A stretch of DNA of 64,000 nt from assembly GCF_012848475.1 (NCBI RefSeq), contig NZ_CP051666.1, positions 1,639,501 to 1,703,500 on the forward strand. The letters are read 5' to 3'. Source of the stretch: Marinobacterium sp. LSUCC0821 (GTDB lineage Bacteria > Pseudomonadota > Gammaproteobacteria > Pseudomonadales > Balneatricaceae). The notes below the pieces were generated by a model, which saw only the letters and a list, made by a program, of their open reading frames with translations, searched no databases and was not told the DNA's origin. The translations under genes and the position numbers were made by a program. Shown in pieces: positions 41,587-46,065 of this stretch (positions are counted from its first letter, which is position 1; each line of letters starts with the position of its first letter).

Positions 41587-42708
41587 TTAATTACTTACAA
41601 ATCGGCGTTGTGCTCGTGAAATAGCAACGAGAGCAACACCAAATATCAAAGAAGCCAACAGGCCACCCCAAAGTGCAATCAGGGTCATTGATATAACGAT
41701 CAGGATCTTAGAGGGCTTAATCGCCTTAAGTTGAACTGGATCAGCAAGATGCCAGGCAGCATAGAGAACCAGCACGACTACCACCTCAAGCGGGATAGCC
41801 GCTAAGATCGCAACAGCCTGCGGACCCATTAGGGCAGCCAGCAATAGACAAACCAATCCAAATATCGCAATAGACCAACCAGTGCGAGAACCCTGTGCGT
41901 AGTGTGCAGACAGACCACCTGCACCATGACACATGGGTATAGCGCCAATAGGTGCCAACACAATATTGGCTATACCACTCGTAAATGCGAGGCGCTTTTC
42001 GGTGACGGGCTTAGCGTCATCTGGAAAGTACTCTTGAGCAATAACGGCCGTCAGGATAAGTGCGTTCGTCAGGGTTAATGCCAACTGCGGCAAAAATGAA
42101 AGTTCCAGGGCTGAACCATAGGAATAGAGTGAAGGCAGGTTCAAAGCAGGTAGAGCTATCAGCGAATTTGACTCAACGAACTCAACACTCTGCCCCAAGA
42201 AGATCCAACCAACCAATAGCACCAACAACAGACCAACAGGACGCAGGGGTGTGTATTGCAAGCCAATCAAAAGCACTAACAGAAGCGCAACCGCGATCAA
42301 CGAAATATTCCCCATCCCCAGGGCATTCACAATCAACGTGATCGCAAGTGCAGCACGCATGCCATGCAGTACGGTTTTAGGAATCTGCGACTTAATCCAA
42401 TCGATAGTGTTGGTCTGCCCAAGCAGAATTAATGTGATGCCTAGCAAGATACCAGTCGCAGCAAGAACATCAGGCCCAATCAGGCCAGCTATACCCATTG
42501 CCGCGGTCGCCTTCATCGGCTGGATTGGAATCGGACGACGGTAAAAGAGTGCCGTAACAAGAGCGAAAATGCCGAAACCATACAGGAGGCCGATAGGGCT
42601 GACCCCTCCGAGCATAATCAGGCCAATTGCCAACGGGAGAAATGTTCCCAAATCAGCAAAAGCGGCAGAGGCCTCTGTTAACCATTTACGCACAATCGTC
42701 GACACCAA
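41587..42708 (-). CDS. MOT1-like molybdate/sulfate transporter
   Basis: A 373-residue membrane protein with about ten helices in two MFS_MOT1 repeats. The family motifs are present: PIQPMKATAAMGIAGL near residues 60-75 and MCHGAGGLSAHYAQGSRTG near 262-280. Eukaryotic and bacterial MOT1 members import molybdate; sulfate is an alternative. It diverges from tupB, so the cell may have one carrier for molybdate and an ABC importer for tungstate. The first codon is uncertain: TTG at 42708 with GTG alternatives and no clear ribosome site. Confidence 0.82.
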   Translation of the reverse strand: MVSTIVRKWLTEASAAFADLGTFLPLAIGLIMLGGVSPIGLLYGFGIFALVTALFYRRPIPIQPMKATAAMGIAGLIGPDVLAATGILLGITLILLGQTNTIDWIKSQIPKTVLHGMRAALAITLIVNALGMGNISLIAVALLLVLLIGLQYTPLRPVGLLLVLLVGWIFLGQSVEFVESNSLIALPALNLPSLYSYGSALELSFLPQLALTLTNALILTAVIAQEYFPDDAKPVTEKRLAFTSGIANIVLAPIGAIPMCHGAGGLSAHYAQGSRTGWSIAIFGLVCLLLAALMGPQAVAILAAIPLEVVVVLVLYAAWHLADPVQLKAIKPSKILIVISMTLIALWGGLLASLIFGVALVAISRAQRRFVSN

Positions 42709-42714
42709 TAGTGT

Positions 42715-42753
42715 TGTTTAGAGAGATGATATTCTTTTTATAGAGAGTTGCAA
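42715..42753. promoter_or_regulatory. Putative Mo/W operator: TGTTTAGAGAG and TAGAGAGTTGCAA
   Basis: Two TAGAGAG copies 22 bases apart (42719 and 42741), about two helical turns, between the MOT1-like gene and tupB. The longer forms TGTTTAGAGAG (42715-42725) and TAGAGAGTTGCAA (42741-42753) both recur before moeA and the regulator gene. A further dyad ATTCTT/AAGAAT lies at 42753-42776. Confidence 0.55.
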
Positions 42754-42812
42754 TTCTTCGGCAAACGTTCAAGAATGCGTAAAAATTACAAAAATGAAAA
42801 AAATGCAGTCTT

Positions 42813-43514
42813 ATGCTACTTAATGCCTTCTCCGAAGCGTTCGCACTCATTCTCTCTTGGAACGCAGATTTAGGTGAGATACTTGGCCTATCTATTCAGG
42901 TCAGCCTAACAGCGCTATTGATTTCTATACTGCTAGGGCTCCCTCTCGGCACGCTACTGGCTATCGGTAAATTCCCTGGCAAACAGGGGCTTGTTACCGT
43001 TGTAAACTCACTCATGGCCCTACCCCCAGTGGTTGTTGGCCTACTTGTCTACCTGCTCCTATCTCGCTCAGGACCACTTGGCGTCCTAGGCTTACTCTAT
43101 ACCCCAGAGGCGATGGTGATCGCGCAGGTGATTCTTATTACGCCAATCATTGCTGCACTATCACATCAAACGATGGAGGAGCTCCATTTAGAGTATCGCG
43201 AACTATTCTCAAGCCTTCAGGTCACCACGTTTAGAGCGATTCCTGTCTATCTTTGGGATGCCCGTTATTCTCTTGTAACCGCTGTGCTAGCTGGTTTTGG
43301 ACGCGCCACCTCTGAAGTAGGTGCAGTGATTATTGTTGGGGGCAACATAGACCACCTGACCAGAGTAATGACCACAACCATTGCCCTTGAGACAGCCAAA
43401 GGGGAGCTGGCGATGGCGCTTGCGCTGGGTATTATCCTGGTTGGCCTGGCGCTTATTGTGAACGCGAGTGTGATGATGGTTCGTAATTTTGCGAGAAGGA
43501 ATGCGTATGCCTAA
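42813..43514 (+). CDS. tupB: Tungstate ABC transporter permease TupB-like
   Basis: A 233-residue permease with five to six helices and the binding-protein-dependent domain: GRATSEVGAVIIVGGNIDHLTR near residues 166-187 is diagnostic of the TupB/WtpB group. It forms the membrane channel for TupA-delivered oxyanion. The ribosome site is poor, but a TGA six codons upstream limits the start. It overlaps tupC by 8 bases. Confidence 0.9.
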   Translation: MLLNAFSEAFALILSWNADLGEILGLSIQVSLTALLISILLGLPLGTLLAIGKFPGKQGLVTVVNSLMALPPVVVGLLVYLLLSRSGPLGVLGLLYTPEAMVIAQVILITPIIAALSHQTMEELHLEYRELFSSLQVTTFRAIPVYLWDARYSLVTAVLAGFGRATSEVGAVIIVGGNIDHLTRVMTTTIALETAKGELAMALALGIILVGLALIVNASVMMVRNFARRNAYA

Positions 43515-44214
43515 CGCAAATACCGCACCGTTCTCGGTCAAAAACCTATCACTTAAAATCGGTGACAAAATACTACTGAGCGAGATTAATCTAACCTCTT
43601 CAACCACTGGTATCTCTCTGATCATGGGTGCCAATGGCGCAGGTAAGAGCCTTCTTTTACGCTCCCTTCATGGTCTATTAGAGATCAGCAGTGGCGAGAT
43701 ACATTTCTCGGGCAGCGCACTAGAAGAGAGCCGAGTTAAGCAAGCGATGGTATTTCAGAAACCGGTTCTGCTTCGACGATCTACTCTCCAGAACCTAAAG
43801 TTTGCAGCACCCGAAGGGACCGACGACAAAACCCTTTTTGAATATCTAGCGCTAGTTCATCTGGATGGCAAAGCGAACTCCCCCGCTCGTATGCTCTCAG
43901 GTGGCGAGCAGCAACGCTTAGCTCTAGCCAGAGCATTGATTACCCAGCCAGAAGTTTTGCTCTTAGATGAGCCTACAGCAAGCCTAGACCCCGCTTCAGT
44001 TTTGATCATTGAGAAACTGATCAAAAGCGCTTCAGAGAAAGGGGTCAAAGTGATCTTTGTTTCACATGATATTGGCCAAGCTAAACGCCTAGCATCAGAC
44101 GTTATCTTCCTGCACAAAGGGGAAGTAACGGAGCATGCAGAGGCCAATACTTTTTTTACACACCCCGAATCCAAAGAGGCAAAAGCCTACCTGGCCGGGG
44201 AACTTTTAATATAA
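43507..44214 (+). CDS. tupC: Tungstate ABC transporter ATP-binding protein TupC-like
   Basis: A 235-residue ATPase with Walker A GANGAGKS near residues 37-44, signature LSGGEQQRL and Walker B VLLLDEP, then ASLDPAS and switch His in VSHD. The ATG at 43507 is chosen for the AAGGA six bases upstream; earlier in-frame starts lie inside tupB. It drives import through TupB. Confidence 0.9.
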   Translation: MPNANTAPFSVKNLSLKIGDKILLSEINLTSSTTGISLIMGANGAGKSLLLRSLHGLLEISSGEIHFSGSALEESRVKQAMVFQKPVLLRRSTLQNLKFAAPEGTDDKTLFEYLALVHLDGKANSPARMLSGGEQQRLALARALITQPEVLLLDEPTASLDPASVLIIEKLIKSASEKGVKVIFVSHDIGQAKRLASDVIFLHKGEVTEHAEANTFFTHPESKEAKAYLAGELLI

Positions 44215-44234
44215 ACAAAAACAGGAACACAACG

Positions 44235-45053
44235 ATGAACGGATTCAAATCCTTTAAAAAGACCGCACTTGCACTATCTGTTTCACTGATAGCTGGAGCT
44301 GCATCGGCAGAATCTATTATTGTTCAGTCGACCACTTCAACTAAAAACTCTGGTCTCTATGACTACCTACTTCCTCTAGTGGAAGCTGACACCGGAGTGC
44401 AGGTGAATGTTGTTGCTGTAGGTACAGGACAAGCGATCAAAAACGCGGAACGCTGTGACGGCGATGTACTGCTTGTGCATGCAAAAGCGTCTGAAGAGAA
44501 GTTTGTGAACAGTGGCTATGGTGTCAGCCGCAGCGATTTGATGTACAACGACTTCGTCATTGTTGGCCCTGCTAACGATCCTGCAGGCGTACATGGATCT
44601 AACAATGTTTCCGAATCACTCGAGAAGATTGCGGGCAAAGAGGCGCTATTCGCTTCACGCGGTGATGACTCTGGTACACACAAGGCAGAGCGCAAACTTT
44701 GGAAACTCACCAAAGTTGATCCAACGGCGAGCTCAGGCAAATGGTACCGCGAAACCGGTTCTGGCATGGGTGCAACGCTGAACACAGCAGTCGGTATGGG
44801 TGCGTACGCAATGACCGACCGTGCAACTTGGACAAAACACGGTAACAAAGGGGATTACATGATTCAGGTCGAGGGTGATAACCGCCTTTTCAACCAGTAT
44901 GGTGTGATTCTAGTAAACCCAGCGAAGTGTCCATCTGTTAAAGCAGAAGCAGGACAGAAGTTCATTGACTGGTTGATATCAGATAAGGGCCAGAAAGCGA
45001 TTGCAAGCTACCAGGTTGCTGGCAAGCAGCTATTCTTCCCTAACGCGAAATAA
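44235..45053 (+). CDS. tupA: Tungstate-binding periplasmic protein TupA-like
   Basis: A 272-residue binding protein. A signal peptide ends near residue 25 (AGAASA/ESI). The oxyanion-binding motif TTSTKNSGL near residues 32-40 is the TupA hallmark, with GTGQA and SRGDDSGTH further on. TupA proteins bind tungstate far better than molybdate, so this importer is probably for tungsten. It is the last of three genes with the order permease-ATPase-binding protein, the reverse of the common A-B-C order. Confidence 0.92.
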   Translation: MNGFKSFKKTALALSVSLIAGAASAESIIVQSTTSTKNSGLYDYLLPLVEADTGVQVNVVAVGTGQAIKNAERCDGDVLLVHAKASEEKFVNSGYGVSRSDLMYNDFVIVGPANDPAGVHGSNNVSESLEKIAGKEALFASRGDDSGTHKAERKLWKLTKVDPTASSGKWYRETGSGMGATLNTAVGMGAYAMTDRATWTKHGNKGDYMIQVEGDNRLFNQYGVILVNPAKCPSVKAEAGQKFIDWLISDKGQKAIASYQVAGKQLFFPNAK

Positions 45054-45068
45054 ATCTCAGGTGAATTT

Positions 45069-45095
45069 CGTTGCTAACGGGCTCCGTTAGCAACG
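45069..45095. terminator. Perfect 12-bp hairpin between tupA and the regulator gene
   Basis: CGTTGCTAACGG pairs with CCGTTAGCAACG around a GCT triloop. The stop codon of the convergent regulator gene (45074-45076) lies within the stem. There is no U-tract on either side, so it may be a rho-helped end or an RNA-stability element. Confidence 0.65.
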
Positions 45096-45940
45096 ACTCT
45101 ACCCGTCTCTGAAACATCATATCCGATGTAACGCGCCGCCTCGGCTTGGAAGGCTTCACTCTTAGTGAAGTTAAGAAGCGCCTGCATTGCAGGCTCAAAG
45201 TAGGCGTGGCGATCAATGATCAAATCATACGACTCTTCACACACCGGAATGAAATCGAGCTTGTAGCGCTCAGCAAAACAGCGCAGACCGAAGGCAACAT
45301 CTGCCTGATCCTCTAGAATAGCTAGGGCCGCTTCTGTTTCAGTGCGTGCTTCACGAACAACCTTGAGCTTATCTAACGCGATACCCGCATCTGCAAGGTA
45401 ACGTTCAAATACATGCTGCGAACCAGCAGCCGCTTGGCGAGTCACCAGACGCTTGCCTGGAATATCAGAGAAACCCTCAATTCCGGAACCCGGCTTCACA
45501 ACTAAGCCACGTTCACGCTTTGCCCAATGAACTAAAACACTGGCCGTGTTTGCCAGTGACTCTTGAAAGGCTTCGGTGTTCCAACCAGAGCGATCAGAGT
45601 TTTCAAGGTGGATAGCACAAGCGATACCCTCATGCTGTTTATAGCGTGTTAAGCCATCGAAACTTCCACTTAGCAAGGTCGGTAAGCCAGAACCTGAGGC
45701 ACTTAGAGCCCACTCCAAAACAGGGTCGTGAGATCCGAGCACAACAAACTTTGGCTGATTGCCAGCCTCTGTAACCACACCCTTCTCTTGCATCCACTGG
45801 CGAATCTCAGCCTTTGGAAAAAGCAGCTTGCCCGTCGCCTTAGCACAAGGGATAGCATTGCGAGCGGCAAGGTCATAAACCTTACGCTCTTTAATTCTGA
45901 GAAGTTCGGCAACCTCTTTGGTCGTTAGAAACTCTGACAT
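45074..45940 (-). CDS. HTH plus PBP_like regulator of the Mo/W cluster
   Basis: A 288-residue one-component regulator. An N-terminal excisionase/MerR-type helix-turn-helix (LTTKEVAELLRIKERKVYDLAARNAIP, residues 4-30) is followed by a substrate-binding-protein-like domain about 65-280, the HTH_17 plus PBP_like arrangement. The second domain would bind an anion or pterin ligand and tune DNA binding. ATG 45940 is chosen (GAGAG upstream; the family motif begins 3 residues in). It converges on tupA and diverges from moeA, and its own 5' region holds the cluster repeat. Confidence 0.85.
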   Translation of the reverse strand: MSEFLTTKEVAELLRIKERKVYDLAARNAIPCAKATGKLLFPKAEIRQWMQEKGVVTEAGNQPKFVVLGSHDPVLEWALSASGSGLPTLLSGSFDGLTRYKQHEGIACAIHLENSDRSGWNTEAFQESLANTASVLVHWAKRERGLVVKPGSGIEGFSDIPGKRLVTRQAAAGSQHVFERYLADAGIALDKLKVVREARTETEAALAILEDQADVAFGLRCFAERYKLDFIPVCEESYDLIIDRHAYFEPAMQALLNFTKSEAFQAEAARYIGYDVSETGRVVANGAR

Positions 45941-45943
45941 AAC

Positions 45944-46009
45944 GCTCTCTTTTAAGTGTTTAGAGAGCATACAACACAGACGCTTTATTAGGCTAGCTAG
46001 AGAGTGCAA
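45944..46009. promoter_or_regulatory. Putative Mo/W operator before the regulator gene and moeA
   Basis: The 125-base divergent region holds GCTCTCT (45944-45950) facing AGAGAGC (45962-45968), TGTTTAGAGAG (45957-45967) and TAGAGAGTGCAAC (45998-46010). The last two match the elements before tupB, the second with one base fewer. The first lies 17-27 bases from the regulator's ATG, which fits autoregulation. Confidence 0.55.
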
Positions 46010-46065
46010 CTGTGCGTTAGTATTTGGTGGTAAAACCTTAGCTTTATCAATTTATTAGGTGACAG

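Follow-up and report, generated by a model that had tools for sequence, protein, structure and literature searches.

The DNA considered here, called the window, is a stretch of 64,000 nucleotides (nt) from Marinobacterium sp. LSUCC0821 (NZ_CP051666.1, positions 1,639,501 to 1,703,500 of the forward strand; window positions are counted from its first letter). The genome is a single contig of 2,360,824 bases and is 99.25% complete. The locus in question combines genes for tungstate import with a regulator that joins a helix-turn-helix (HTH) to a periplasmic-binding-protein (PBP)-like domain, and its main feature is a conserved half-site, CGGAAATTATGCA, upstream of tupB. The gene order is a MOT1-like gene (minus strand), tupB-tupC-tupA (plus), the HTH-PBP regulator (minus) and moeA (plus). 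The MOT1-like carrier gene lies at 41587-42708 and matches PF16983 with 131.6 bits (cut-off 30). The tupB-like gene at 42813-43514 encodes an ATP-binding cassette (ABC) permease that matches NF038017 above its cut-off and NF041773 with E 5.2e-50 and 170 bits, below the cut-off of 320. The tupC-like ATPase gene, with an ATG start chosen, follows at 43507-44214 (PF00005; NF041774 at 125 bits, below its cut-off of 400), and the gene for a tupA-like tungstate-binding protein lies at 44235-45053 (PF12849; NF041772 is the best model at 236 bits, below its cut-off of 400). The curated equivalog models TupA, TupB and TupC all match below their cut-offs, and for its own protein the TupA model ranks first, TupB second and TupC third. 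The moeA gene at 46066-47313 matches PF03453, PF00994 and PF03454 over their cut-offs.

The regulator gene occupies 45074-45940 and encodes 288 amino acids (aa) from an ATG start. Its reading frame (45074-46009) stays open upstream to a TTG at 46009, and the orthologues favour the ATG at 45940. The N terminus has an excisionase-type HTH, with PF12728 (HTH_17) at 52.1 bits (cut-off 27) and TIGR01764 at 38.2 bits (cut-off 28.8), and the C terminus has a PBP_like domain (PF12727, 152.3 bits, cut-off 27); this is the architecture of the TaoR family discussed below. The structure model has a mean predicted local distance difference test score (pLDDT) of 92.4 and a PBP-type fold in its C-terminal domain, and the nearest solved folds include phosphate-, molybdate- and tungstate-binding proteins. 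Among the 50 matches listed, Z runs from 17.2 to 14.8 over about 180-210 residues, with a root-mean-square deviation of 2.8-3.8, and LysR effector domains and glutamate-binding proteins tie at the same Z, so no oxyanion is singled out. The PBP fold is common, and it is therefore no proof of the ligand. A search of the PDB by sequence gave one weak match (E 0.0073).

The orthologous loci were the best 80 of 218, 915,184 bases in all. Besides the window's own they supplied 55 tupB and 80 regulator upstreams (56 and 81 with the window); 25 of the 80 loci gave no tupB upstream and so are not among the 55. Unsupervised motif discovery on the 56 tup upstreams, window included, returned CTGCATAATTTCCG, i.e. 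CGGAAATTATGCAG, which near its ends accepts A or C and T or G. The log-likelihood at width 14 was 382.6, against 51.1 for a shuffled run with fewer starts. The half-site consensus CGGAAATTATGCA(G/A) is present at 12 bits or more in 49 of 56 tupBCA upstreams linked to this regulator, in both alpha- and gammaproteobacteria. Many sites extend over the tupB start codon, and the first codons there are conserved, so the discovery was repeated on upstreams shortened by 20 nt at that end. It gave this motif again (log-likelihood 269.4 against 48.9 shuffled, at equal settings), and at 12 bits or more it occurs in 38 of 56 tup upstreams, in none of the reversed ones and in 4 of 81 regulator upstreams. 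Over the 80 loci, which also trained the matrix, 55 of the 60 matches that reach 17 bits lie between 400 bp upstream of the tupB start and 30 bp inside it, and the reversed sequence gives none. The half-site is nearly confined to tup upstreams in the 80 loci.

The motif carries over from gamma- to alphaproteobacteria. A matrix made from 19 gammaproteobacterial upstreams, the window among them, finds sites of at least 12 bits in 29 of 37 alphaproteobacterial tup upstreams, in one reversed upstream and in 1 of 37 regulator upstreams. The two classes were split by hand from record titles, with L133 ('Marine bacterium') counted as a gammaproteobacterium, and metagenome-assembled genomes are possibly misnamed. 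Half-sites also come in pairs. Among the 28 loci with a pair (of 56 upstreams), the best pairs are inverted and 28-31 bp apart in 16 and direct and 17-19 bp apart in nine; the other three fall outside these two classes, and the listing, made at a low threshold of 9 bits, is descriptive. A motif common to the regulator upstreams was also sought, with only weak results (log-likelihood 110.7, lambda 0.6, width 14, run without a shuffled control), and was dropped.

The window sites were scored with a held-out matrix from 51 upstreams, trained without the window, its two same-genus loci (L066 and L067) and two more loci, those of LSUCC0096 and a relative (L068 and L069). The top match of this matrix in the 64 kb, on both strands, is the proposed half-site 2, TGAAAAAAATGCAG, at 42795-42808 on the plus strand (14.2 bits). 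It is a direct repeat 17 bp from the proposed half-site 1, CGTAAAAATTACAA, at 42778-42791 on the plus strand (11.3 bits), which is aligned in L066 and L067. The top matches of L066 and L067 also lie before tupB. With the 20 nt at the start codon removed before training (the window being included in training), half-site 1 becomes the best match of the window tup upstream, at 14.0 bits. Outside the tupB promoter the window has no match of 13 bits or more, moeA and the regulator gene included, and the reversed window gives one.

The half-sites may lie on the start of the tupB transcript. In an alignment of five upstreams, TTGCAAT at 42748-42754 is invariant and the region of the double half-site is well kept. 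The palindromic TTGCAA (42748-42753; 5 of 5 upstreams) is a candidate -35 box common to tupB, read rightward, and the MOT1-like gene, read leftward. A putative weak -10 box of tupB, AAGAAT at 42771-42776 on the plus strand, is 17 nt from TTGCAA and was not reported by the promoter scan. The putative -10 box of the MOT1-like gene, TATCAT at 42726-42731 on the minus strand, is 16 nt from TTGCAA and comes from that scan (one found, shuffle mean 0.6). Four relatives have AAAAAT, AAAAAT, ACAATT and ACAATT at the place of the first, and TAAACT, TAAGAT, TACCAT and TACCAT, at the same spacing, at that of the second. These hexamers, 17 nt to the right and 16 nt to the left of TTGCAA, resemble -10 boxes to varying degree. 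If TTGCAA-N17-AAGAAT is the promoter, the half-sites would cover the tupB transcription start.

The HTH-PBP regulator goes together with tungstate import, as the earlier note on this DNA had suggested. tupA is present in the fetched flanks of 63 of the 80 orthologous regulator loci. Among 115 relatives, all 20 that have a full-length regulator homologue also have tupA (TupA at 1e-40 or better), versus 11 of the 95 others. Ten of these 11 genomes were examined, all except G100, and in G065 the first TupA copy. In G065 and G089, which have TupA at 57-64% and no full-length regulator homologue, no site of at least 11 bits lies upstream of tupB. Eight tupA-first operons without a full-length homologue have no half-site upstream either, although they are a weak control. 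The half-site co-occurs with one clade of the regulator. All 53 regulators of this clade that were aligned, from the alpha- and gammaproteobacterial loci with the motif (52 of 76 usable orthologues and the window), have IKERKVYD in the HTH without change. Fifteen homologues at 32-36% identity have NEKK at this position, and their tup upstreams have no half-site match over 10.5 bits.

The tup operons of these 15 homologues start with tupA and belong to the same taxonomic family (L166-L172, L174, L175, L177, L178 and L181-L184). A sigma-54-type box, loosely GGCA..TTGC, which we take to be the pattern of such boxes, is found in 14 of their 15 tupA upstreams, versus two of eight control upstreams from genomes lacking a full-length homologue; seven of these eight are mostly coding. 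The matches of L178 (GGCC) and L184 (GGAC) are poor, and the box of L168 is 240 bp out.

Genes of formate metabolism lie near some of the loci. Next to the regulator gene, and transcribed away from it, stands fdhD in L066 (3575-3733) and L067 (5838-6000), as the first gene of fdhD-mobA-mobB-moeA; in the window (45941-46065) this place is taken by moeA. The window arrangement looks as if fdhD, mobA and mobB had been lost or moved. The formate dehydrogenases of G004 and G005 (L160, L161 and L162 compared) resemble that of G084, which served as query, at 83-84%. The enzyme is encoded close to the regulator in G084, about 11-12 kb off on the same contig in G004, and on another contig in G005. In G000, which has tup and the regulator, the G084-type formate dehydrogenase is matched only weakly and in part, and the match falls on the other formate dehydrogenase of G000. 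At G000:C1:2004551-2005672 (L146:1387-2508; L163:2552-3673) lies the gene for a second PBP_like protein, which has 373 aa and a ModE/LysR-type HTH. The genes divergent from it resemble, by eye, an operon for an NAD-dependent formate dehydrogenase.

The earlier note had been drawn to another feature, an AGAGAG repeat said to tie tupB, the MOT1-like gene, moeA and the regulator gene into one regulon. The repeats themselves are present as described. The 11-mer TGTTTAGAGAG lies at 42715-42725 and at 45957-45967, a second repeat follows each (TAGAGAGTTGCAA from 42741 and TAGAGAGTGCAAC from 45998), and GCTCTCT at 45944-45950 faces an inverted AGAGAGC at 45962-45968 beside the regulator ATG. The claim that such a repeat is unlikely by chance holds for this single pair, since the two intergenic regions share an 11-mer in 1.0% of 20,000 mononucleotide shuffles. 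It is unremarkable once the whole window is scanned, as 9 of 561 pairs among 34 intergenic regions share an exact 11-mer (this set is without the regulator-moeA region, where gene picking used the TTG start for the regulator). The 2.36 Mb genome has five exact copies of TGTTTAGAGAG and none of the reversed pattern, and the three copies elsewhere all fall within open reading frames, in one case close to the start of the frame. With up to two mismatches there are 873 copies, versus 635 for the reversed pattern, and these are mostly noise.

By the test that the earlier note had set for its motif, conservation in front of orthologous clusters, TGTTTAGAGAG fails. It is absent from all 55 tup and all 80 regulator upstreams, taken at 150 bp where that length was available, and the tup promoters of both same-genus loci, L066 and L067, lack it. 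The shorter TAGAGAG occurs in none of the 55 and one of the 80, against shuffle expectations of 0.94 and 1.18. The 11-mer is therefore unlikely to be an operator, and the genome copies, the two-mismatch count and the orthologous upstreams led to its rejection as a regulon motif. Read leftward, both copies stand at the start of leftward genes, the MOT1-like gene and the regulator gene. The first abuts the -10-like TATCAT. The second overlaps by 2 bp a -10-like TATGCT of the regulator (45966-45971, minus strand), which belongs to a TGTTGTATSCT block that L066 and L067 have too. The GCTCTCT at 45944-45950 reads AGAGAGC on the coding (minus) strand and may be a Shine-Dalgarno-like stretch ahead of the regulator ATG; AGAGA precedes the ATG in L066 and L067 as well. 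The part of TAGAGAGTTGCAA that is conserved is so because of TTGCAA. The two TGTTTAGAGAG repeats most likely resemble each other by chance, at the points where two leftward transcripts begin. Motif discovery on the orthologous promoters, which the earlier note had called for, did yield a conserved operator candidate in the tupB promoter, but a different one from the AGAGAG repeat. With the repeat not conserved and no conserved half-site at moeA or the regulator gene, the regulon of four genes on a shared motif is not supported.

We consider it probable, with some reserve, that the 288-aa HTH-PBP protein is a TaoR-family factor that binds both candidate half-sites and acts as an oxyanion-responsive repressor of tupBCA. 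Binding of the half-site by this regulator is predicted from co-occurrence. The protein would bind the direct half-sites at 42778-42791 and 42795-42808, just downstream of the putative TTGCAA-N17-AAGAAT promoter and on the proposed start of the tupBCA transcript. Tungstate, or molybdate, in the cytoplasm would fill the PBP domain, and the loaded regulator would then block tupBCA, so that tungstate import is on only under metal shortage. Repression under metal sufficiency is proposed because TaoR reportedly behaves in this manner in Desulfovibrio. The regulator may act on the MOT1-like gene as well, since this gene diverges from the same TTGCAA and shares the intergenic region.

Several results weigh against this model. 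Both sites of the window are degenerate, with 14.2 and 11.3 bits, and half-site 1 only ties for second place in the 64 kb with a site at 43794 inside tupC, also of 11.3 bits. L068 and L069 encode the regulator, yet the held-out matrix finds no site there that reaches 11 bits, and G071 has a regulator at 46% but no match of 11 bits or more before tupB. Seven of the 56 tup upstreams fail at 12 bits and three of the 56 reversed ones pass, and among the five upstreams left out of training three pass. The transfer between classes is one-sided, since a matrix from alphaproteobacteria passes only 10 of 19 gammaproteobacterial upstreams; this matrix slid to the coding side, with the conserved first codons of tupB contributing. 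None of 194 genomes from the order and none of 398 from the phylum contains the strict inverted form, although the pattern is insensitive and matches just 4 of the 56 tup upstreams. A match of 17.8 bits occurs within tupB of G089, a genome in which the regulator itself has no match. Of the eight tupA-first operons, seven have the 300 nt ahead of tupA filled for the most part by a single open frame (77-89 codons), so this stretch is hardly promoter DNA. As the regulator-free controls are few and mostly coding, the identity of the binder rests on co-occurrence.

The half-site could instead be bound by some other factor, such as a different metal or redox regulator, with the HTH-PBP protein a mere neighbour. 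Such a factor would fit a site that the promoter of the regulator gene itself seldom carries (4 of 81 upstreams reach 12 bits) and that gives no match of at least 14 bits in the formate dehydrogenase regions L160-L163 (L162 being cut at the contig end). It fits less well with G065 and G089, where a full-length regulator homologue and the upstream site are missing together, or with the eight tupA-first operons that also lack both (seven of these upstreams are mostly coding), and it leaves aside the HTH segment that is invariant across the alpha- and gammaproteobacterial loci with the motif. This explanation appears unlikely, though of appreciable weight. It is far less probable that the inverted pair is an RNA hairpin over the start codon and not a DNA operator. 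The inverted arms, 28-31 bp apart, do often reach the tupB start codon, but 9 of the 28 paired loci, including the window, L066 and L067, have direct repeats, and these cannot form this hairpin.

The AGAGAG repeats might also be a newly evolved, species-specific operator linking tupB, the MOT1-like gene, moeA and the regulator gene. The exact 11-mer is in both intergenic regions, with the shuffle frequency given above, and L067 carries TTTAGAGAG ahead of the regulator start. Yet the regulators of L066 and L067 are 70% identical to that of the window, with the same IKERKVYD, and neither tup promoter has the repeat, nor does any of the 55 orthologous ones. The window copies stand at likely -10 boxes and a Shine-Dalgarno-like stretch, and the three others within open reading frames. 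An operator of this kind is very unlikely.

A wider pattern can be put forward, tentatively and with somewhat less than even confidence. TaoR-like regulators of tupBCA in alpha- and gammaproteobacteria would share the half-site CGGAAATTATGCA in two layouts, used interchangeably: inverted with a spacing of about three helical turns, or direct with one of less than two. An excisionase-type HTH would then have a modular operator, lying over the start of transcription or translation. A sister clade, with roughly one-third identity and different HTH residues, would stand next to sigma-54-type tup promoters. An unconserved repeat is replaced by a conserved and testable operator candidate for proteobacterial tungstate import, which also offers a sequence handle on possible DNA recognition by TaoR-like regulators outside Desulfovibrio. 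Some bacteria use tungstate in their formate dehydrogenases, and the tup switch may therefore bear on one-carbon (C1) metabolism in these organisms.

The regulator class has already been described, and by its architecture the window protein is a further member of the TaoR family. The earlier note, which knew of no described operator for the class, overlooked the TaoR family paper of 2019, in which binding sites were reportedly footprinted and targets in other Proteobacteria are said to have been predicted as well. TaoR and DVU3193 of Desulfovibrio vulgaris are presumably one protein. The passages concerned in one source describe TaoR as a characterized regulator with HTH and PBP-like domains and as a regulator of tungsten aldehyde oxidoreductase (PMC11980592), and those in another name DVU3193 tupR and tie it to the regulation of tungstate uptake by tupABC (PMC10102598). 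For TaoR/tupR, both sets of passages cite Rajeev et al. 2019 (Environ Microbiol 21:784). The CGGAAATTATGCA operator may already be listed in Rajeev et al. 2019.

Three known systems resemble the window regulator. In MoeA-PBP fusion proteins (PRK14498 / NF011068) the C-terminal part of the profile (414-645) is matched by regulator residues 60-284, but the regulator has an HTH in place of the MoeA part and reaches 137 of 534 bits, below the cut-off. ModE, in the passage that treats it, is an oxyanion-binding regulator of a molybdenum (Mo) importer, but has another HTH and TOBE domains (PMC11980592). No ModE or TOBE model is among the profile matches of the window regulator at E 0.001 or better. 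With TaoR/TupR, as far as the passages cited above define it, the window regulator shares the HTH_17 and PBP-like architecture, and it is likewise associated in the genome with tungstate/molybdate transport. TaoR is linked there to tungsten aldehyde oxidoreductase, whereas the genes linked here are those of the Mo cofactor and, in some relatives, formate dehydrogenase.

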